Source of the DNA: Acidobacteriota bacterium
Lineage (GTDB): Bacteria; Acidobacteriota; Terriglobia; Bryobacterales; Bryobacteraceae
Reading direction: 5' to 3'
Length of the DNA: 64,000 bases
Assembly: GCA_026393985.1 (NCBI GenBank)
Contig: JAPKZB010000014.1
Location: 899-64,898 of the forward strand
A program made the position numbers and the translations under genes. Below, one piece after another: positions 1 through 29,773 of this stretch. The first letter of the stretch is position 1. Each line of letters opens with the position of its first letter. The notes beneath the pieces are model-generated. The model was not told the origin of the DNA, made no database searches, and saw only the letters and a program-made list of their open reading frames with translations.

Positions 1-194
1 GCTTCGGCGCGGCAGGCGGGACGAGTTCCTCGCCCGTTGGTGCCGGGCCTGCGCGGCCTGTGCGCTCTTTTTGGAACCGCGCACAACGGACTCGCTTCGG
101 CGCGGCAGGCGGGACGAGTTCCTCGCCCGTTGGTGCCGGGCCTGCGCGGCCTGTGCGCTCTTTTTGGAACCGCGCACAACGGACTCGCTTCGGG
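1..194 (+). repeat. Palindromic repeat array R1 (tandem, 93-bp period, cut by the window edge)
   Basis: Two units plus a start of a third, repeating every 93 bp (GCTTCGG recurs at 1, 94 and 187). The complete unit spans 79-158: it opens with GCGCACA and closes with TGTGCGC, its reverse complement. Inside are nested inverted arms (CGGCA/TGCCG and ACGAG/CTCGC type). Units are separated by a linker ending in GGAAC. The third unit stops at the shared string TTCGG (190-194), where sulfatase-derived sequence begins. The unit is open in several reading frames. Related units occur at 20274, 22175, 24805, 25604 and 28787. Confidence 0.9.
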
Positions 195-20222: not shown

Positions 20223-20273
20223 GAAGGGAGCCCGGTCACGCTTGCCTGCGGTGCTTTCCCTCTTCTGAGGAAC

Positions 20274-20443
20274 GCGCACAACGGACTCGCTTCGGCCCGG
20301 CAGGATGGGCGCGTTCCTCGCCCTTTGGTGGCGGGCCTGCGCGGCCTGTGCGCTTCTGAGGAACGCGCACAACGGACTCGCTGCGGCCGGCGGGAAGGGC
20401 GCGTTCCTCGCCCTTTGGTGCCGGGCCTCCGCGGCCTGTGCGC
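20274..20443 (+). repeat. Palindromic repeat array R2 (two tandem units)
   Basis: Units at 20274-20353 and 20365-20443, each starting GCGCACA and ending TGTGCGC, separated by CTTCTGAGGAAC-type linkers (period 91, then 90 bp). The arms GCCCGGCA and the later GCGGGC pair imperfectly, and a central hairpin lies around GGGCG/CGCCC. The array abuts the IS110 element on its right and the beta-propeller scrap on its left. Confidence 0.9.
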
Positions 20444-20483
20444 TTCTGAGGAACCGCGTCTCCGAGGCTGTAGAATCAATGAG

Positions 20484-21908
20484 TTACGCGGCTTCCCCCA
20501 ATGGCACCAGTTTGTAGCCCCGCCGGGCGGCCTGTTTGTGTAGGTTGGCCTCGATGCGTTTTTCGCGCAGGAGATCCCGCTCGGCCCAGAGAGTCGCGTT
20601 GTACTCAACTTGGTTCTTCAACATGGTGTAGAAAATGACTGCGATCTTGTGGGCGGTCGCGGTGGTGGCCGCAGACGGACCTAGCTTGGCTTTCATGCGA
20701 CGCAGATACGCGCCCATCGGGGTCGTGTCGCGATGCAACGAATGAGCCGCGAGACGAAATAGGGTGCCCGCTCGATTCTTCACGCGTCGATTCCCTCGCC
20801 ATAGCACCTTGCCGCCGCTGATGTCGTTGTCCGGACAAAGGCCCAGCCAGGAAACAAAATGCGCCGAGCTGGGCCACCGGGACATGTCGCGTCCGACTTC
20901 GCTGAACAAAGGAAAGACCAACGTCATGAGGCCCGGAATCTGAGTAAGATCGACCCCAAACAGTTTGTAGGCCTCCTCGCGCAGGTTGAAGTTGGGATCA
21001 CCGGTCTTCTTTTTGCGCTTGCGCTGCTTCTGCTTGCGGTCGGCCGGCATGGGCTTTTGAGCGGGATCGGTCATCGGCGTGAAGGTGTTCAATAGGTTCT
21101 CGATCGACTTGTCGCATTCCTCGATCTGCTTCTGATAACCGCGGTAGAGCGAAAGCCTTTGCGTCAGCACGAGAATCTGCGCGGGACACCAGTTGCCTTC
21201 GAGCGATTGCCGGATCGTCTCCTCGCTGGCTTTTACATGCGGATCGCGCAGTTTGGCCAGCACCGCCGGGTCTCGCTCGCCAGCGATGATGGCGTCCAGG
21301 ATCGCCAGCCCGGTGAGGCCGGTGATGTCGGAGATGACGTGCTGGAACTGCACGTTCCTCTGCGTCAGAGCCTTGTGTAGATGCTGCACGTGCTGGCTGG
21401 CCATTTCGACCAGATCCGCGCGGTGCCGCATCAGCGTCCGCACCGCTCGCACATCGGCGTCGGGGCGGAAGGCTCCCGCCAGCAAGCCCATCGAGTGCAG
21501 ATACTGAATCCACTGGCATTCATGAAAGTCCGTGCGTTTGCCAGGCACGTTTTTCATGTTCCGGGGATTGACGAGTTGCACGTGGAGGCCGTGTTTCTCG
21601 AACACGTCGTAGACCGGAATCCAGTAAACGCCGGTGGATTCCATCGCTACCGTCTTGATCCCGCAACTTACCATCCATTCCGCCATCGCGTTCAGTTCCC
21701 ACGTGAACGTCCCGCTCTTGCGTACCGGATTCTCGTCGCGATCGGGCGGCACGGCGACAAAGATCTCCCGCGCCCCGATGTCGCAACCCGCGGCGGCGGG
21801 TTGACACAAGCGCGGCTCTAGCTGGGTCTTCTTTCGCTTTCTCCCGGCGACTTTCGGTGCATCTTTCTGCCGTCCATTTTCCGCCGTGGACGAACTCTGC
21901 TTTGACAT
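20484..21908 (-). CDS. IS110-family transposase (DEDD/RuvC-like plus Tnp20)
   Basis: A 474-residue protein with a basic N-terminal extension rich in Lys. The RuvC-like DEDD domain follows: first Asp in AGCDIGAREIFVAV (D43), Glu in AMESTGVYWIPVY (E90), Asp in GKRTDFHECQW (D127). A helical region comes next, with a Lys/Arg/Gln-rich insert (about 285-305). The Tnp20 domain holds IPGLMTLVFPLF, SWLGLCPDNDISGGK and LWRGNRRVKNRAGTLFR, where the catalytic Ser of this family lies. IS110 transposases are guided by a structured 'bridge' RNA from the element's non-coding end. The frame is full length without stops, so the enzyme could be active. Confidence 0.93.
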   Translation of the reverse strand: MSKQSSSTAENGRQKDAPKVAGRKRKKTQLEPRLCQPAAAGCDIGAREIFVAVPPDRDENPVRKSGTFTWELNAMAEWMVSCGIKTVAMESTGVYWIPVYDVFEKHGLHVQLVNPRNMKNVPGKRTDFHECQWIQYLHSMGLLAGAFRPDADVRAVRTLMRHRADLVEMASQHVQHLHKALTQRNVQFQHVISDITGLTGLAILDAIIAGERDPAVLAKLRDPHVKASEETIRQSLEGNWCPAQILVLTQRLSLYRGYQKQIEECDKSIENLLNTFTPMTDPAQKPMPADRKQKQRKRKKKTGDPNFNLREEAYKLFGVDLTQIPGLMTLVFPLFSEVGRDMSRWPSSAHFVSWLGLCPDNDISGGKVLWRGNRRVKNRAGTLFRLAAHSLHRDTTPMGAYLRRMKAKLGPSAATTATAHKIAVIFYTMLKNQVEYNATLWAERDLLREKRIEANLHKQAARRGYKLVPLGEAA

Positions 21909-22162
21909 ATGGCGACCTCGTGTTCGGACAGTTGGCCAAGCCGCGCAAGGAAAGTACTCTTCTGATCGGAATCAACCGGGGTGTTACTCCGGCCGTAACC
22001 ACTGTTTGGTGCACGGAGCTTGGGACCACGCTTCTGAACGGGCTATGCAGCACCACTGAGTATTCGGCCTACTTCCGCTGTCCGAACGTCTCTAGCTTCT
22101 CACCGCATCGCCGGCTCGCGAAAGGTTCCTCCACTTTTGGTCCCGGTCGCCCGGGTGCGGAG
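21909..22162 (-). ncRNA. Candidate IS110 bridge RNA region
   Basis: About 250 bp of non-coding DNA upstream of the transposase, the place where IS110-group elements encode their bridge RNA. It contains a stem-loop at 21993-22016 (CCGT/ACGG outer, ACCA/TGGT inner) and a segment CTTCTGAACG (22031-22040) resembling the flanking target linker CTTCTGAGGAAC. The location and local structure fit. The RNA itself and its loops are inferred, not demonstrated. Confidence 0.45.
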
Positions 22163-22174
22163 CTTCTGAGGAAC

Positions 22175-22253
22175 GCGCACAACGGACTCGCTGCGGCCGG
22201 CGGGAAGGGCGAGTTCCTCGCCCGTTGGTGCCGGGCCTGCGCGGCCTGTGCGC
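22175..22253 (+). repeat. Palindromic repeat unit R3
   Basis: A single 79-bp unit with GCGCACA/TGTGCGC ends, to the right of the IS110 element. Its centre is a clean hairpin, GGGCGAG TTC CTCGCCC. It is preceded by the CTTCTGAGGAAC linker, as in R2. Confidence 0.9.
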
Positions 22254-22412: not shown

Positions 22413-24308
22413 TTATTGGTCGCCTAAGCGGAGTACGCTGGAAGGCTGGCCGCTCTGTAGACCCAACTGAGTGTTGTCACCCCAGAGGACGCTATCGCCC
22501 CAGAGCAGACTGTCTCCCCAGAGCAGACTATCTCCCCACAGTAGGCTGTAGCCGCTGGTGGTGGCATCGCTCCAGACCGCGTTCGAGCCCCAGATCGCAC
22601 CATCGCTCAGAATGAGGTTCTTTCCCCAGACGGTTTGATTGCTCCACGGACCGCCGGAGATACCGGTGAACAGAGAGTTGGCGGCGTGGGTGATTTTTAC
22701 GCAGCCGATGCCGCCGTTGGTCCCGCCCTGAGTGGAGTTGCAGGTGTAGAGGGCGGCGGGAGAAAGGGCGGGCTTTCCCGCCGGGGCGACATCGGCGTTG
22801 TTGAGAGCGGCAAGCACGTCAAGATAGCCGGCGCCGACGGTGAAGACATCGTAGACAACCGTCTGGGTGTTGAATGTGCTCAGGACGGGGAAGGTCTTCG
22901 TGGCCGATTTCATCAGTTTCGCCTTAGCGCTGTCTGGCGTGAGGGCTGGGCCCAACTTCTGGGCGAGGAGGGCGGCGGCACCGGCCACCATGGGCGAGGC
23001 CATACTGGTACCGCTGAGGTGCAGGAAGTTGCCGGGCGCCGCGAAGGCCATGGACGAACCGATTTCGCCGTACCAAGTGCGGTTGTCCGGCAAAAGTGCG
23101 CTCATTTGGGTCGCAAAGTTGATAGCGGAGTAGAGTCGGTTGCCCGGCGCGACGAGGTCCGGCTTCAGGAACCGGTCAATTCCGCTGGGACCTTTGGAGC
23201 TAAAGGAGGCCATTACGTCGTCGGAGCGTCCGGGAGTCTGCTTATCGTTCATGGCGCCGACGGTGATGACGTAGGGATCGATGCCGGGTGAACCGATGGT
23301 GCCATACCCGTTGATCCAGTACTTTTTCCCTTTGCTGTCCGTCACGACGTTGACACGGCCCAGGTTCCCAGCAGCGACGACGACCGTGATGCCGGCCCGC
23401 TAAGCCCGTTCGACGGCTTGACAGAGGGGGTCCCTCGTGTACGATTCATAGACGCGGCGGCCCAGCGAGAGGTTCATGACGCGAATGTTGAACTGGGTTC
23501 TAAGTTGAATAGCCCGGTCGATGGCCAGGATGGCACCGGAGTCCGTGCCGGCGCCCACGTTGTTGAGGACGCGGAGGTCGATGAGATGGGACCTCGGGGC
23601 CACGCCGACAAAGCGGGCCTTCGGAGAGGGAACCTTTTCGATGATGGCTTGTCCCTTATTCTCGGCGGTGCATCGTCCGTTACCCGCCACGATGCCGGCG
23701 ACATGGGTGCCGTGGCCCCAGGGGTCATTGGGGGTAGGACGTGCTCCGCTCGAATTGTTCCCATTCATTCCTGGCGTCGCGCCATCTGGCGGAGCGAAGT
23801 TCTGGCGGAAGACGACCCGGCTCTTCATGCAGGTATCATCATTCAGGTCGAGATGGGGGTTGATCCCGCTATCGATGATGGCGATACCGATGCCGCGGCC
23901 ATCGAAGCCTGAGTTTTGGGCCGCATCGGCGCCAACGGCGGGGATGGCGTGGTTGAGGTTGGCGGAGATTTCGCGGTCGGGGGAGATGTATATGACGCGG
24001 GGATCCTTCGCGAGGGAGGCGAGGGCGGCTCCGGTGACGCGGGCGGCGAGGCCGTTGATCAGGCCGAGTTCGCGGACGGGACGTTGGGAGGCGAGGTTGA
24101 CACCGCCGAGAGCAAGGGGGCGCGCAGGGCGCGGGGCGCCGGGGCGCGCAGCGGAAGTTTCTTCGAGTTGGATGATGACGTCGATGGACTCGTTGGGATC
24201 GAGGTTGGCGAGGTCCGGGGCGAGCTTGCCGGGTTGGGCGAAGAGGGGGACAACGGAGGAGAGGAGTACCAGAGCGGCGGTACGCAATCGGATGGTCGGG
24301 TAGAGCAT
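22413..24308 (-). pseudogene. Secreted S8 subtilisin-like protease interrupted by one in-frame TAG
   Basis: From ATG 24308 (AAGGAA ribosome-binding site) the frame encodes a signal peptide (LRTAALVLLSSVVPLFAQ) and an I9-like prodomain (VIIQLEE). The catalytic triad blocks are IAIIDSGINPH (Asp about 143), DPWGHGTHVAGIVAG (His about 199) and LSGTSMASPMVAGAAALLAQ (Ser about 433). A TAG at 23400-23402 (codon 303) lies in QAVERA-stop-RAGITVVVAAGN; subtilases often have Trp at this point, so TGG to TAG is likely. The frame is otherwise continuous to 22413. The C-terminus carries four LLWGDS-type repeats. Either a very recent nonsense allele or a sequence error; the protease would be dead because Ser lies after the stop. 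Confidence 0.85.
22480..22551 (-). repeat. 18-bp tandem repeat encoding WGD hexapeptides
   Basis: Four consecutive 18-bp units (each starting CCCCA on the plus strand) encode LLWGDS-like hexapeptides at the subtilase C-terminus. Similar WGD/WGN repeats in secreted subtilases are thought to form a short surface or wall-associated tail. Copies two and three are almost identical, which suggests recent expansion. Confidence 0.85.
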
Positions 24309-24804
24309 AAGGGTTCCTTCTTGAAATCTGGTTTCTGACGTTCGTGTGAGGCCGGGCGCTTTGAGGGGGAAGCGGGCGCTTGAACGGTACGAATGATTTA
24401 ATCTTGGAGCCTTTTTTTGCGTGGTCGAATGGGAAAGGAGGTTCATTTTGGGGCGGGACCCGGGTACGGGAGTAAGTTCCTTTTTATCGGGGAGTAAGAA
24501 GAATCGGCGCGTGGGTGGAGGGTGGATACAGGTTACTGACTGCGCTTACCGGGGAGGGAGTTTGCACAGGGGGAGTCGAGTCCCGCCGCCCGCTTGGACT
24601 TTCGGCCTGGGTGGAATCTCATCCTAATTGGCGTTCCCCGCGTTTTCGCCACAGTTCGAGTGCCTCCGGTAAAGTGAGTTGGTGCGAAGGCGCCATCGCC
24701 ATCAACCGTGTCTCAATCCGGCATGGGGAGGACGGCTTGGGATGGAGGATCGGCGTTACGGGGCGGCCGGCTTCTCCTTTTCTGCCGATAGCTTCTAAGG
24801 CACC
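24309..24804. other. Subtilase upstream region and unassigned DNA
   Basis: About 500 bp holding the promoter region of the minus-strand subtilase. Open frames on both strands are long but lack recognisable domains. A minus-strand frame near 24620-24700 reads LTLPEALELWRKRGE, which looks protein-like but could not be tied to a family. Confidence 0.45.
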
Positions 24805-24835
24805 GCGTACAACGGACTCGCTGCGGCCTGTGCGC
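24805..24835 (+). repeat. Truncated palindromic repeat unit R4
   Basis: A 31-bp deleted unit: left end GCGTACAACGGACTCGCT joined directly to right end GCGGCCTGTGCGC, preceded by a CTTCTAAGG linker. The central hairpin is lost, as expected from excision of a palindrome. It sits immediately before beta-propeller scrap copy 2. Confidence 0.8.
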
Positions 24836-25390
24836 TTGGTGGGCGCGGGCGGGGCGGGTGGGGCCCTCCCCTTTTCCCTTGGGCCGCAGGAGCCTTGGTG
24901 CCGGGCGAAATCGAAGAAGCTGTTTCGCACCCTGGAGGGGTTTCCGAACGGATTGGCCGCCTCGGCCGAGGGGTTTTGGATGTCCGAACAGTAGCGGTCG
25001 GGAAGCCAGGCGCGGGCCAATGGATTGGCGGAGCGGAGTTCGCTGAGTGAAGCGGCATGTTTGTCCATTGGAGCAGCAAGGTGCGGCAGACGGTGCAGAC
25101 GCCCTCGCAGAATACGGGCGAGTTGGCGTTTGTCAATGACCATCCTTTCGATTTGATGGTCGCCAACATGATGGTCGTCAACGCGCGGCCCAACAGGGTG
25201 TTCAGGGGGACCCGGCAGATTCCGGTTGATCCGGCCGGTCCCGGGGCGTATGCGACGGGGCGCAGTGGGACAAGGGGAGGCTATGCATTGCCGCGCTCCG
25301 GTTACGGGCGGACGCCAGATGGAGACGGCTACGGTCGAGGGGGAGATGCCGTGAAAGATTGGGGGAGACGACGGCCTCAAGTCTTCCGTT
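24836..25390 (+). pseudogene. Degenerate beta-propeller gene (copy 2)
   Basis: Colinear at the DNA level with 28960-29560 of the gene at 28752. It opens with a leader-like stretch (GAGGAGGALPFSLGPQ), then KKLFRTLEGFPNGLAASAEG and FWMSEQ followed by TAG where the other copy has a Lys codon. Later homology (GTGCGGCAGACGGT, GGCGCAGTGGGACAAGG and others) is spread over several frames. It is therefore an older, decayed paralogue. In both copies the palindromic repeat lies just before the leader, so the repeat was probably already there when the gene duplicated. Confidence 0.82.
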
Positions 25391-25565: not shown

Positions 25566-28313
25566 GTGACCATGATAGCCCGACTGTCCTTTCTTTTTGG
25601 AACGCGCACAACGGACTCGCTTCGGCCCGGCAGAAGGGGCCGGGCCGAAGCGGCCTGTGCGCTCGTTGTTGCCTTTCTCACGGCACTATGCACGGCAGTA
25701 CCGGGGGCGTGGGGGCAGGAGCCGCCCGCGTTGCGGATTCCCGGGGCGGTTTCGCCCGTTCGCTACGAGGCCACGCTGCGTCTGATCCCCGCCGAGGAGG
25801 AGTTTCGCGGCTCGATCCGGATTGCGGTGCGCGCCGACGAATCGGCGCCAACGATCTGGCTGCACGCGACGAAAGAGATGACCATCGAAAGGGCGACCAT
25901 CCAGAACCCGGCTGGAGGCAAGCGGGCGGCGAAGGTGATCCGGCCCGCCGACACGGACTGGCTCGGACTGGTACCCGCGGGCGGTCCGCTGGCCAAGGGC
26001 ACGACGGCGGAGATCGAGATTGCTTACCGGAGCCGGCTCGACACCAAGAACAGCAGCGGGGTTTTCCGCGGCATGGACGGAGGCACGGCCTATCTCTACA
26101 CGCAGTTCGAACCGATCGACGCCCGCCGCGCCTTTCCCTGCTTCGACGAGCCGCGCTACAAGGTGCCGTGGCAGTTGACGCTCGAGGTGAAGAAAGAGCA
26201 CGAAGCCTTTGCCAACACGGCGCCCGTGCGGGAGACAGCGACCGAAGGCGGCGCCATGAAGCGCATCGAGTTTGCTCCCACCAAGCCGCTGCCCTCCTAT
26301 CTGCTGGCTTTCGCGGTGGGCCCGTTTGAGATCGTGCCCGCCGGGCTGGCCGGGCGCACGAAGGCGCCGGTGCGCATTATCGTGCCCAAAGGGCGCAAGG
26401 CGGAGGCCGCCTACGCGGTGGAGGTGACGCCGAAGATTTTGGCGGCGCTCGAGGAGTATTTCGACATTCCGTATCCGTACGGGAAGCTGGATCAGATTGC
26501 CGTACCGCTATTTGGCGGGGCGATGGAGAATCCGGGACTGGTGACCTACGCCGATACGCTGCTGCTGGGCCGCCGGGAGGCCGATACGATTGGGCGGAAG
26601 CGGAGCTATTTTGAAGTCTGCGCGCATGAGCTGGCGCATCAGTGGTTTGGTGACCTGGTGACGATGCCGTGGTGGAACGACCTGTGGCTGAACGAATCGT
26701 TCGCCACCTGGATGGCGGCCAAGATCACGCAACAGGCGCACCCGGAATGGAACGTGGATGTACAAAGTGTTACCGAAACACTGCAGATCATGGGACAGGA
26801 CGGGCTGTCGAGCGCGCGCCGGATCCGGCAGCCGGTGGAGTCGAACAACGACATCGCCAACGCCTTTGACGGGATCACGTATTTGAAGGGCGGGGCGGTG
26901 GTGCAGATGATTGAGACGTGGATTGGCGAAGGCGACTTCCGCGCGGGCGTGCGGCGCTACATGCGCAAGCACGCCTACGGCAGCGCGCGGGCGGAGGACT
27001 TTTTCGGGGCGCTGACCGCGGTGGCCAAGGGCAAGGACGTGACGGCGACGGCGAGTACGTTTCTCGATCAGGGGGGCGTGCCGGAGGTAAGCCTGTCGCT
27101 GCGGTGCGAGAGGGGCAGGAAACCGGTGGCGACGCTGGCGCAGAGGCGGTTTCTGCCGCTGGGCTCGAAGGCGAAGGCGGATCAGAGCTGGCGGATCCCG
27201 GTGTGTCTGCAGTGGGCGGGCGGGGGGCGGCAGTGTACGATGCTGGCCGGGAGTGAGCCGCAGGAGGTGGAGTTGGCCGCGACGGGGTGCCCGGAGTGGA
27301 TTCTGGGGAATGAGAACATGAGCGGGTACTACCGGACGCGCTACGGGGGCGAGTGGTTCGGTAAGCTGATGGCGGCGGGCTACGATACGCTGCCGCTGCG
27401 GGTGCGCACGGGGCTGCTGGGGGAGGCGACGGCGATGGCGAGCGCGGGACTGCTGCCGCTGCCGGACGCGTTAGCGCTGGTGGCGAAGGCCAAGGACGCC
27501 AAGGAGAGAGAGGTGGTGGGGGGCGGGTTGGGCCTGTTGCGAACCTTTCAATCGCTGACGCCGCCCGAGCTGCGCCCGAACCTGGCGCGGCTGGTGCGGG
27601 GCGCTTTCGGGGCTCGCGCGCGGGAGTTGGGATGGGTGCACCGGCCGGGTGACAGCGACGATACGAAGCTGCTGCGAGCGGCGCTGGTGCCCTATGCGGC
27701 GGTGCGGGGCGACGACCCGGAGCTTCTCGATAAGGCGCGGGAGCTGGCGCTGGCGAGTTTGGGAGACTGGAAGTCGCTGCCGGAGGATATGCGGGATGCG
27801 GTGCTGTCGGCGGCGGCAGCGCGGCGGGGGGACGGGGTATTGTTTGACCGCTACCTGGAGGCGGCGCGGGCGGCGAAGGATGCGCGGGATCGGCGGACGA
27901 TGCTTTCGGCGCTGGCGAGCGTGGAGGAGCCGGGGCTGGTAGCGCGGGCACAGCAGCTGTTTCTGACGGGCGGCTTTGACGCGCGCGAGGCGGTGAGTCT
28001 GCTGTATGCGGGGATGGATTCCGCGGGGCAGCGGCGGGCGGCGTTCGACTTCACGAAGGCGAATCTGGCGGAGGTGGAGAAGCGGATTCCGGCAGATATC
28101 ACGGGGGCGAAGGGTGCGATGGCGATTTTTACGGCATCGCGATTCTGCAGCGCGCCGGAGCGGGCGGAGGCAGAGGCGCTATTTGGCGAGCGAGCGAAGG
28201 CGTACGGCGGGGGGCCGCGGACGATGGCGCAGGTACTGGAGTCGATTGATTTGTGTGCGGCCAGGAAGGCGGCGCAGGAGAGACAGGTGGTAGAGATCCT
28301 GTCGCGCTACTAA
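25566..28313 (+). CDS. M1-family zinc aminopeptidase with a repeat-derived leader
   Basis: A 915-residue secreted aminopeptidase N-like enzyme. An N-terminal beta domain (about 52-235) contains the YLYTQFEPIDARRAFPCFDEP block. The catalytic domain has the exopeptidase motif GGAMENPG (about 317-324), zinc site HELAHQWFGD (H354, E355, H358) and WLNESFA (third ligand Glu about 377). An ERAP1-like helical C-terminal domain (about 580-915) follows. It removes N-terminal residues from peptides outside the cytoplasm. A 59-bp palindromic repeat (25604-25662) lies in frame at about residues 13-33, directly before and into the hydrophobic leader AACALVVAFLTALCTAV. The start is uncertain: GTG 25566 or ATG 25572, without a clear ribosome-binding site. 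It has the strongest GC third-position bias in the region. Confidence 0.92.
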   Translation: MTMIARLSFLFGTRTTDSLRPGRRGRAEAACALVVAFLTALCTAVPGAWGQEPPALRIPGAVSPVRYEATLRLIPAEEEFRGSIRIAVRADESAPTIWLHATKEMTIERATIQNPAGGKRAAKVIRPADTDWLGLVPAGGPLAKGTTAEIEIAYRSRLDTKNSSGVFRGMDGGTAYLYTQFEPIDARRAFPCFDEPRYKVPWQLTLEVKKEHEAFANTAPVRETATEGGAMKRIEFAPTKPLPSYLLAFAVGPFEIVPAGLAGRTKAPVRIIVPKGRKAEAAYAVEVTPKILAALEEYFDIPYPYGKLDQIAVPLFGGAMENPGLVTYADTLLLGRREADTIGRKRSYFEVCAHELAHQWFGDLVTMPWWNDLWLNESFATWMAAKITQQAHPEWNVDVQSVTETLQIMGQDGLSSARRIRQPVESNNDIANAFDGITYLKGGAVVQMIETWIGEGDFRAGVRRYMRKHAYGSARAEDFFGALTAVAKGKDVTATASTFLDQGGVPEVSLSLRCERGRKPVATLAQRRFLPLGSKAKADQSWRIPVCLQWAGGGRQCTMLAGSEPQEVELAATGCPEWILGNENMSGYYRTRYGGEWFGKLMAAGYDTLPLRVRTGLLGEATAMASAGLLPLPDALALVAKAKDAKEREVVGGGLGLLRTFQSLTPPELRPNLARLVRGAFGARARELGWVHRPGDSDDTKLLRAALVPYAAVRGDDPELLDKARELALASLGDWKSLPEDMRDAVLSAAAARRGDGVLFDRYLEAARAAKDARDRRTMLSALASVEEPGLVARAQQLFLTGGFDAREAVSLLYAGMDSAGQRRAAFDFTKANLAEVEKRIPADITGAKGAMAIFTASRFCSAPERAEAEALFGERAKAYGGGPRTMAQVLESIDLCAARKAAQERQVVEILSRY
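25604..25662 (+). repeat. Palindromic repeat unit R5, inside the aminopeptidase reading frame
   Basis: A shortened 59-bp unit with GCGCACA and TGTGCGC ends and a perfect 13-bp inner stem, GCTTCGGCCCGGC / GCCGGGCCGAAGC, around a short loop. It is read in frame as TRTTDSLRPGRRGRAEAACA within the N-terminus of the M1 aminopeptidase. Confidence 0.92.
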
Positions 28314-28751: not shown

Positions 28752-29773
28752 ATGACCAGACGAGATTTGTTGCAATTGAGGAACACGCGCACAACGGACT
28801 CGCTCCGGTCCGGCGGAATGGGCGAGTACCTCGCCAGTTGGGGCCGGGCCTGCGCGGCCTGTGCGCTTGGGGGGAACCGGCGCACAACGGACTCGCTGGG
28901 GCCCGACACGAGGGGCGAGTTCCTTGCCCGTTGGGGCCACGCCTACGCGGCCTGTGCGCTTGGCGCGGGCGCTTCCCTTCCCTTTGCCCTTCGGGCGCAG
29001 GGGGCTCGGCGCCGGGCAAAGACGACCAAGCTGTTTCGGGCTCCGGACGGGTTTCCGAATGGCCTGGCCGCTACGGCCGAGGGGCTTTGGATCGCCGAGC
29101 AGAAGTTGTCGGGCAGTCAGGCGCAGGCGTACGGGTTGCCGGAGCCACGGTCGCTTAGCGAAGCGGCTTGGCTCGTCGATTGGAACGGCAAAGTGCGGCA
29201 GACGGTGACGACTCCTTCGCGGAATACGAGCGGGTTGGCGTTCGGCAATGACCACCTTTGGATGGTCGCCAATGCCCCGCCCTACGGGTGTTCGAGGTGG
29301 ACCGGCAGTCGCGGCTCATGAGCCACCGGCAGATTCCGCTCGGGCCGGCTGACAACGGGGGCGGGTGCCACGGGGCGCAGTGGGACAAAGGGAAGCTGTG
29401 GATTGCCGCGCTGCGGCTGCGGGCGAATGTGCGGGTAGATCCGGCGACGTGGACGCCGGAGTTCGTCATCCCTTTCTACCAGGCGCCGGAGAGGAGCCGG
29501 TACCACGACATTACGGTAGAGGGCGATGCGCTGTGGCAGATTGTGGGGAATGACTGCCGGCGGTATGAGGATTTTCGGCCAGCATTGGTCCGGTATGAGC
29601 TGGCGACGGGGCGCGTGGTGGAGGTGGTGGAGTTTTTGAATCCGTCGTGCGACCCGCACGGGCTGGCGCTATGGGACGGGAAACTGATCAGTTGTGACGC
29701 GGGGATCCATCCGGGGTGGCCGAACCGGGATAGCCCAACGGCGGGTTGGGTTTTTCAGATCGACCTGGTTTAG
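28752..29773 (+). pseudogene. Exported beta-propeller protein (SMP-30/streptogramin-lyase-like), frameshifted
   Basis: The first frame (28752 to about 29280) encodes a repeat-derived N-terminus, a leader (AACALGAGASLPFALRAQG), then KLFRAPDGFPNGLAATAEGL and ending near LWMVANAPP. The second frame (about 29280-29773) continues RVFEVDRQSRLMSHRQIPLG and GCHGAQWDKGKLWIAALRLR to a terminal VFQIDLV. Joined, they give a roughly 340-residue propeller with 'GLW', 'HGLALWDG' and 'YHDITVEGD' blade motifs, resembling SMP-30/Vgb-type lactonases or lyases. A one-base indel in a C-rich run near 29279-29283 breaks it. Two palindromic repeat units lie in frame in the N-terminus. Two older scraps of the same gene lie at 20090 and 24836. 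The stop overlaps the end of the convergent PQQ gene. Confidence 0.8.
28787..28959 (+). repeat. Palindromic repeat array R6 (two units inside a reading frame)
   Basis: Units at 28787-28866 and 28880-28959, both with GCGCACA and TGTGCGC ends, spaced 93 bp apart (a multiple of three). They are translated as RTTDSL...GRACAACALGG and RTTDSL...GHAYAACALGA in the N-terminus of the beta-propeller gene. The repeated AACALG supplies the start of the hydrophobic leader. Confidence 0.9.

Follow-up and report, generated by a model that had tools for sequence, protein, structure and literature searches.

A palindromic 93-bp repeat family of Bryobacteraceae, its insertion motif and its possible dependence on IS110 transposons

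Repeat units in the window

The stretch of DNA analysed here (the window) comprises 64,000 nucleotides (nt) of an Acidobacteriota bacterium of the family Bryobacteraceae (GenBank assembly GCA_026393985.1, contig JAPKZB010000014.1, positions 899 to 64,898) and carries at six loci a palindromic repeat that recurs in related genera; two of the arrays (20274-20443 and 22175-22253) flank an IS110-family transposon sitting in their linker (Table 1). Comparison of the sequences inclines us to regard the palindromes as a non-autonomous mobile element that would travel as a passenger of the IS110 recombinase.

A repeat search recovered nine copies of a conserved 29-nt left part, starting at 73, 166, 20268, 20359, 22169, 24799, 25598, 28781 and 28874, and these cover all six loci named in a preliminary description of the window. 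That description had given the hairpin core as 79-80 bp in full units and as 59 and 31 bp in two shortened ones, which are the lengths we find, and had treated GGAAC as a linker between palindromes ending in GCGCACA and TGTGCGC. The ends and the linker sequence are as described; the boundary of the unit is not, because the conserved part begins earlier than the hairpin, and the linker part stands to the left of single copies too. We therefore take the unit as about 93 bp, the usual tandem period, composed of TTYTRA, GGAACnC and an 80-bp imperfect palindrome with the ends given above. An alignment of 40 units from the own genome (G000, to which the window belongs), together with single copies elsewhere, starts with CTTYTRA-GGAACnC and has TTYTRA after the hairpin. 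Tandem spacings in the window are 93, 91 and 93 bp, units with shorter linkers measuring 91-92 bp, and the array at 1-194 extends upstream on the contig, with an N gap, to about C32:502.

Table 1. Repeat units, transposon parts and associated genes in the window
Positions	Strand	Feature	Basis or remark
1..194	+	Last part of a tandem array: an incomplete unit, a full one (core 79-158) and the beginning of a third	Repeat search, sequence
20262..20443	+	Two tandem units, cores 20274-20353 and 20365-20443, linker CTTCTGAGGAAC	
20444..22162	-	IS110-family transposon in the array linker; 3' (donor-like) end of the transposase to the left	Exact ends depend on core position
20484..21908	-	IS110 transposase, 474 aa	PF01548, PF02371, NF033542 (222 bits)
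21909..22162	-	Non-coding region, proposed bridge-RNA region	No Rfam match
21959..21965	-	TCAGAAG, proposed as guide of the donor loop; agrees with CTTCTGA of the left joint	Position converted from L380 index
22031..22037	-	TCAGAAG, proposed as guide of the target loop; agrees with CTTCTGA of the right joint	Position converted from L380 index
22163..22253	+	Single unit, core 22175-22253, right of the IS110	
24799..24835	+	Unit with a core of only 31 bp, next to a degenerate paralogue of the 28752 gene	
25566..28313	+	M1 aminopeptidase open reading frame (ORF), 915 aa, with in-frame insertion	
25598..25662	+	Shortened unit, 59-bp core, in frame in the signal-peptide-like N-terminus of the M1 aminopeptidase	
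28775..28959	+	Tandem pair of units, inserted in frame in the Tat-like signal region of the ORF that begins at 28752	

At the position of the shortened 25604-25662 unit a relative (L141) has a full 80-bp core, and the window unit is thus shortened by loss of its hairpin centre; from a reading of the two sequences, the deletion appears to fall between GGGG direct repeats. Such a loss had been proposed for both shortened forms, and the relative bears it out for the 59-bp form. Two paralogous segments at 24851-25310 and 28962-29425 are 76-85% alike, the first being degenerate, and each has a repeat copy at its N-terminal end.

Distribution among genomes

A covariance-model scan of the genome and its relatives, proposed in the preliminary description, found many copies in both, well beyond those of the window. 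In the own genome (5.93 Mb) there are at least 74 BLAST matches and at least 124 covariance-model matches at E <= 0.1, the latter including short units of about 45 bp; both counts are lower bounds, scoring having taken in 40 and 150 candidates. The model matches 29 of 150 genomes of the family, representing 20 of 76 genera (E <= 0.001; at most 28 places scored per genome), and 12 of 299 genomes in a class-level sample, 11 of them from the family (E <= 1e-6). A scan of named genomes with an IUPAC pattern matched at least 99 stretches, and all 80 of the matches listed are Acidobacteria by title, for example Bryobacteraceae or Bryobacterales, Candidatus Solibacter and Sulfopaludibacter. Carriage by viruses was considered and rejected, as the exact IUPAC pattern of the element had no match in viral contigs. 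Copies in G364, which belongs to another genus, outscore those of the same-genus G113 against the model, and of 80 positions the one G364 copy compared shares 74 with the home consensus, one G113 copy 59 and the single copy of the same-genus G078 71. The element may have passed from one genus to another, although a mixed assembly could also give this picture.

Short units of 44-45 nt form tandem arrays of their own in the own genome (e.g. C79:18671-18760, C55:106637-106905 and C78:226576-226846), as if the deleted short form had been amplified separately. Repeat arrays also lie at contig ends or N gaps (C94, C24, C72, C90, C33 and C55); they have probably broken the assembly and led to an underestimate of unit numbers. 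The array set used below consists of 200 arrays found, 190 after removal of duplicates, 142 off contig edges, 128 with clean ends and 125 with 200 nt to the left.

Folding and covariation of the hairpin

When folded as DNA, four of six full units are equalled by only 0 to 3 of 200 shuffles and the remaining two by 10 and 33. For the 59-bp form the folding z is -7.1, and the 31-bp form folds no better than chance, with 163 of 200 shuffles as good. Within the own genome RNAalifold gives a double change in one of 23 pairs; the variation within one genome being too small, the comparison was moved to between genera. Across 21 genomes the arms of a unit pair with each other at a mean of -35.4 kcal/mol and with arms swapped between genomes at -29.3 kcal/mol (0 of 20000 permutations as good), and own pairing likewise beats swapped pairing for the inner arm alone (0 of 20000). 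Exceptions are G092, G083, G061, G088 and G011, where the majority of swapped arms match the own arm in pairing strength. Because own arms pair better than swapped ones, the hairpin itself is kept, beyond the bare sequence, and such covariation between genera speaks against simple segmental duplication, a possibility that had been raised for these copies. All six reading frames are open in 52 of 91 cores against 24.7% of shuffles; this is not proof of selection, because the symmetry of the palindrome explains part of it. No known RNA family in Rfam matches the units or the non-coding region of the IS110.

Insertion motif and empty sites

The consensus of 128 arrays has CTTYTRA-GGAACnC as left flank and TTYTRA as right flank. 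Of 89 single copies, 41 have exact TTYTRA in the left flank and 26 have it in the right flank, against a background of 0.00037 per position in fetched genome DNA. Three pairs of filled and empty sites (L125/L140; L132/L180, with its duplicate loci; L161/L069) were recovered, and in all three the empty site lacks the unit plus 6 bp, showing that insertion is precise. In the first two pairs the right copy of the motif matches the empty site (TTCTGA and TTTTCGA, respectively) and the left copy does not, which supports a host motif on the right; the comparisons of the M1 aminopeptidase and Tat genes described below are compatible with a host-derived right flank. A further 2 Mb or so of own-genome DNA contained no additional empty site; one more relative for the L125 site (L226) differs by -5 by our own arithmetic. 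Two other DNA searches yielded one informative comparison, that of a receptor-like gene described below. Arrays also change in size, as two orthologous sites differ in unit number (three versus one).

Being short, devoid of a transposase gene and precisely inserted at all three pairs, the element has these properties in common with miniature inverted-repeat transposable elements; for an exact duplication of the target site the signal is weak. The earlier proposal of a candidate non-autonomous element is strengthened by these three sites together with the many copies, their presence in related genera and the covariation of the arms. Segmental duplication or an assembly artefact would be a scarcely credible source of the family: several copies do lie at contig ends or beside N runs, but others occupy many unrelated sites in separately assembled genomes, and neither the precise empty sites nor the covariation would be expected.

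In L138 a direct repeat of about 16 bp (TTAACGCACCCAGTCC) stands on both sides of the element; it exceeds the usual 6 bp and is partly decayed in L170.

Position relative to genes

A home-made gene finder, which gave the correct frame for 289 of 300 windows in a self-check on its own training ORFs, placed 82 of the 142 arrays off contig edges in intergenic DNA, 30 next to a single gene, 17 in frame within an ORF and 13 between two different frames; some of the 17 may be errors of the gene finder. Directly behind a coding ORF on the same strand lie 27 of 125 arrays, against 12 in a mirror test. The stop codon is the TRA of the left TTYTRA in 21 of the 125, and 20 of those 21 genes end in Phe. 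In the largest family of neighbours (44 genes), 15 arrays lie on the same strand no more than 100 nt from the 3' end; judged by its sequence, the family appears to be TonB-dependent receptor-like. At one of these receptor-like genes G078 and G004 have AACTTCTAG or AATTTCTAG followed by a hairpin and a T-run, and G000, G135 and G150 have AACTTCTGA followed by the element.

A rival reading is that of a functional hairpin, a terminator or mRNA stabiliser kept by selection behind genes and only incidentally mobile. The excess behind same-strand gene ends, the element standing where two relatives have a hairpin plus T-run, and the covarying arms all agree with such a role. However, most copies do not lie directly behind a gene and some lie inside genes, while the position at the stop codon is explained by the target motif itself, and we consider it improbable that function behind genes accounts for the family. 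A role as terminator in particular was rejected, since a simple terminator scan does not score the units.

Because the gene finder called both N-terminal cases of the window intergenic, N-terminal insertions were sought separately. The M1 aminopeptidase of the window begins MIARLSFLF-[GTRTTDSLRPGRRGRAEAACAL]-VVAFLTALCTAVPGAWGQ, where its G135 counterpart has MTRRLSFLLLGSLTALITSAPDAWGQ and a G150 relative carries a full unit; by our own count the orthologues have 30 versus 23 extra codons, and the frame is kept. The Tat-like ORF at 28752 contains two units, its G149 counterpart has MTKREFLTAGLAAGVGMNTSFAQ, and the G135 counterpart is a short version still holding GCGGCCTGTGCGC, perhaps a remnant of the repeat. 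Relatives of both genes have shorter N-termini. Among 26 candidate frames (orthologues counted once) we read eight genes as signal-peptide insertions, the signal peptides being judged by eye: the two of the window, L037, L083/L187, L089, L093, L134 and L155, with L190 as a weaker ninth. All eight share, with small changes, the frame ..R(T/K)TDS...AA(C/F)A(L/I). The frame is open both in L083, with three units, and in its orthologue L187, with one, and length changes at orthologous coding sites keep the frame.

Unrelated protein genes thus carry the palindrome in frame. Seven of the 17 proteins with in-frame arrays have Pfam hits, and only in a terminase-like protein (L065) does the match span the insert. 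A reverse transcriptase (L100) aligns to PDB 8ub7 at residues 4-67 and 103-372, with the insert left out. The preliminary description had overlooked the CTTYTRA target, the placement behind Phe-stop codons, the in-frame insertion (two cases in the window) and the ends shared with the IS110.

Candidate mobilising enzymes

Described repetitive extragenic palindromic (REP) sequences carry a GTAG or CGTC tag, include intragenic copies and have ends that can supply a stop codon (PMC3733652). The element resembles them, and the hairpins formed by REP doublets (REPINs), in its hairpins and clusters, some intragenic copies, stop-supplying ends and role as a target of IS110 elements. Another rival reading is therefore movement by a REP-associated tyrosine transposase (RAYT) or another Y1 (HUH) transposase; the hairpin form, the arrays and the intergenic bias would suit such an origin, and a RAYT-like ORF occurs in the genus. 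A Y1_Tnp hit is indeed present in 12 of 12 genomes with at least 12 listed copies (own count), but also in 116 of 150 genomes overall. The copy-rich G150 has no Y1_Tnp match at E <= 0.01, 34 Y1 loci (84.7 kb) contain no element at E <= 1, and the RAYT-rich genomes G032, G066, G100, G111 and G145 had no match to the element in the family covariance scan. The flanks carry neither tag, in line with the mismatch to standard REP consensus sequences noted in the preliminary description, and the RAYT-like protein of the genus, by our own reading, lacks one HUH histidine. Mobilisation by a RAYT or Y1 enzyme accordingly appears quite improbable and was rejected, no link having been found in the own genome, the 150 family genomes or 10 chosen genomes. 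"REP-like" thus holds for the form of the element and not for its membership: it differs from REPs and REPINs in lacking the tag and a RAYT link, and in its 80-bp stem region.

The RAYT-like ORF itself (191 aa; L034:1414-1989, own genome C79:7792-8364), with one HUH histidine apparently missing, is kept at 78-84% identity in G135, G004 and G078 whatever the copy number of the repeat, and may have been domesticated.

The IS110 of the window has the left joint CTTCTGAGGAACCGCGTCTCCGAGG, which recurs with small variants at another six sites in the genomes G000, G135 and G150; in G000, the four left joints seen directly follow a palindrome. Among the right joints listed for this IS110, three enter a palindrome and the fourth lies outside one. 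The same kind of end, CTNNNRA-GGAAC (the hyphen marking the joint), occurs in homologues from G143, G093, G053, G108, G120 and G046. In the family covariance scan palindromes were detected in G143, and the other five genomes had no palindrome match; the motif therefore belongs to the transposon as well. Transposon and palindrome share both CTTYTRA-GGAAC and C-TTYTRA, that is, a donor end and a target motif.

The non-coding regions of these IS110 elements contain two guide-like words in similar contexts. From 22 IS110 loci listed, eight were used for donor guides, chosen for a recognisable CTNNNRAGGAAC-like end, while L405 and L406 (fragments with the end), L388 (at a contig end) and 11 loci without a recognisable end were left aside. 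In 8 of 8 loci the left flank is reverse-complemented exactly by the word on the transposase side, of which there are five versions; the second word, in four versions, matches the right flank in 6 of 6 loci where that flank could be located. Permuting the labels reaches this agreement in 12 of 40320 cases for the donor and 4 of 720 for the target, and crossing the loops gives agreement in 3 of 6 either way. This pattern fits the donor and target loops of bridge RNAs (PMC11208160). The non-coding regions L380-L390 represent an acidobacterial IS110 clade whose two guide-like words agree with its donor and target flanks, usable as a test set for bridge RNAs.

Proposed movement of the element and its weight

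In the reading that we favour, a unit inserts next to a host CTTYTRA, the host motif ending up on the right and the TTYTRA of the element on the left, as two of the empty sites support. Movement would occur in trans, through a recombinase of the IS110 family whose bridge RNA reads CTTYTRA on donor and target; recombination by IS621 has also been assayed with its bridge RNA supplied in trans (PMC11208160). A circle of one unit would have the junction TTYTRA-GGAAC, itself a target, and we propose that head-to-tail 93-bp arrays arise for this reason, their linkers becoming landing sites for the IS110. Copies would survive where they do little harm, between genes, behind a Phe-stop codon or in frame. 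We infer that they are tolerated behind Phe-stops because the element restores TTYTRA, and within genes because 93 bp adds 31 sense codons; export would then continue despite the insert. More tentatively, the unit may be a 31-codon miniature bridge-RNA passenger, guided by RNA to CTTYTRA both at the Phe-stops of outer-membrane protein genes and at Leu-Leu of signal peptides, where the ..ACAACALL frame would lengthen the N-region and re-form the hydrophobic core, which may allow export to continue.

Several observations weigh against this passenger reading. The main one is that six of the 12 genomes with at least 12 listed copies (G041, G088, G092, G103, G116 and G124) gave no homologue of this IS110 at E <= 1e-60, weaker homologues being unexamined, so that a member of the clade was not detected in every copy-rich genome. 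The repeats might serve the IS110 as mere targets. On the right, the two elements share little, a C preceding TTYTRA, and the flanks to the left of CTTYTRA show no consensus although an IS110 would be expected to have a bipartite target. The empty site L069 is unlike both flanking copies of L161. The two flanking hexamers agree exactly in 7 of 89 copies (null 3.9, p 0.08) and in 6 of 40 near-consensus copies (null 2.0, p 0.0055), the Y position of the same 40 being concordant in 24 against 16.3 expected (p 0.004); identity slightly above chance also fits weak target duplication. As for the guides, the eight loci are related and a small sample, it was the guide word that served to place the right joint of G108, no right joint was found in G120 and G046, and in the window IS110 alone guide-like words of both lengths occur in 41 of 2000 shuffles, a modest result.

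Alternatively, another enzyme may move the palindromes, and the guides of the IS110 may only have adapted to their abundant linkers, as those of IS621 and ISPpu9/10 have to REPs. IS110 elements insert in REPs (PMC1525189) and are known to target them (PMC1525189, PMC11208160), four left joints in the own genome follow palindromes, and the close IS110 is absent from half of the 12 copy-rich genomes. We nevertheless think this rather unlikely, as the IS110s of G093, G053, G108, G120 and G046 share the CTNNNRA-GGAAC end in genomes with no palindrome match; no other linked enzyme was found in searches that covered only Y1_Tnp and this IS110.

Comparison with described systems

The passenger reading shares with IS621-type IS110 elements the logic of the junction, the guide loops for donor and target and the preference for repeats (PMC11208160). 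Unlike an IS110, the palindrome encodes no recombinase and does not have the length to contain a bridge RNA, so that it would have to be a passenger in trans. Rickettsia palindromic elements (RPEs), of about 150 bp and in ten families (review PMC10969869), are likewise palindromic, non-autonomous and found in frame inside unrelated protein genes. By their description they differ from the present element, which has a single 93-bp unit, an acidobacterial host, insertion at CTTYTRA, tandem arrays, many copies after stop codons and six frames that are often open. RU-1, RU-2 and RU-3, which are MITE-like, are mobile and small as well, and their open frames can be fused to genes, in some cases with a predicted signal peptide as the outcome (PMC2759123), but as described they measure 127, 168 and 103 bp and have enterobacterial hosts. 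The Solibacter genome has many short repeats (PMC3174227), and the available portions of that source do not contain the present family. Searches among open PubMed Central papers brought up neither an IS110 passenger of this kind nor the repeat family itself.

If the passenger reading is true, bridge-RNA transposons have small parasites, and these would be natural substrates for the study of donor recognition in trans. Beside the case of Rickettsia, the element would represent a further natural experiment in which repeats insert peptides into working proteins, including signal peptides and the ends of outer-membrane proteins, and the IS110 clade with its covarying guides could serve to test the rules of bridge RNAs outside IS621.

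Neighbouring gene

The subtilisin-like gene at 22413-24446 is present as two ORFs in the window and as one ORF of 628 aa in L141, and a WGDSLLWGDS motif is repeated near its C-terminus.
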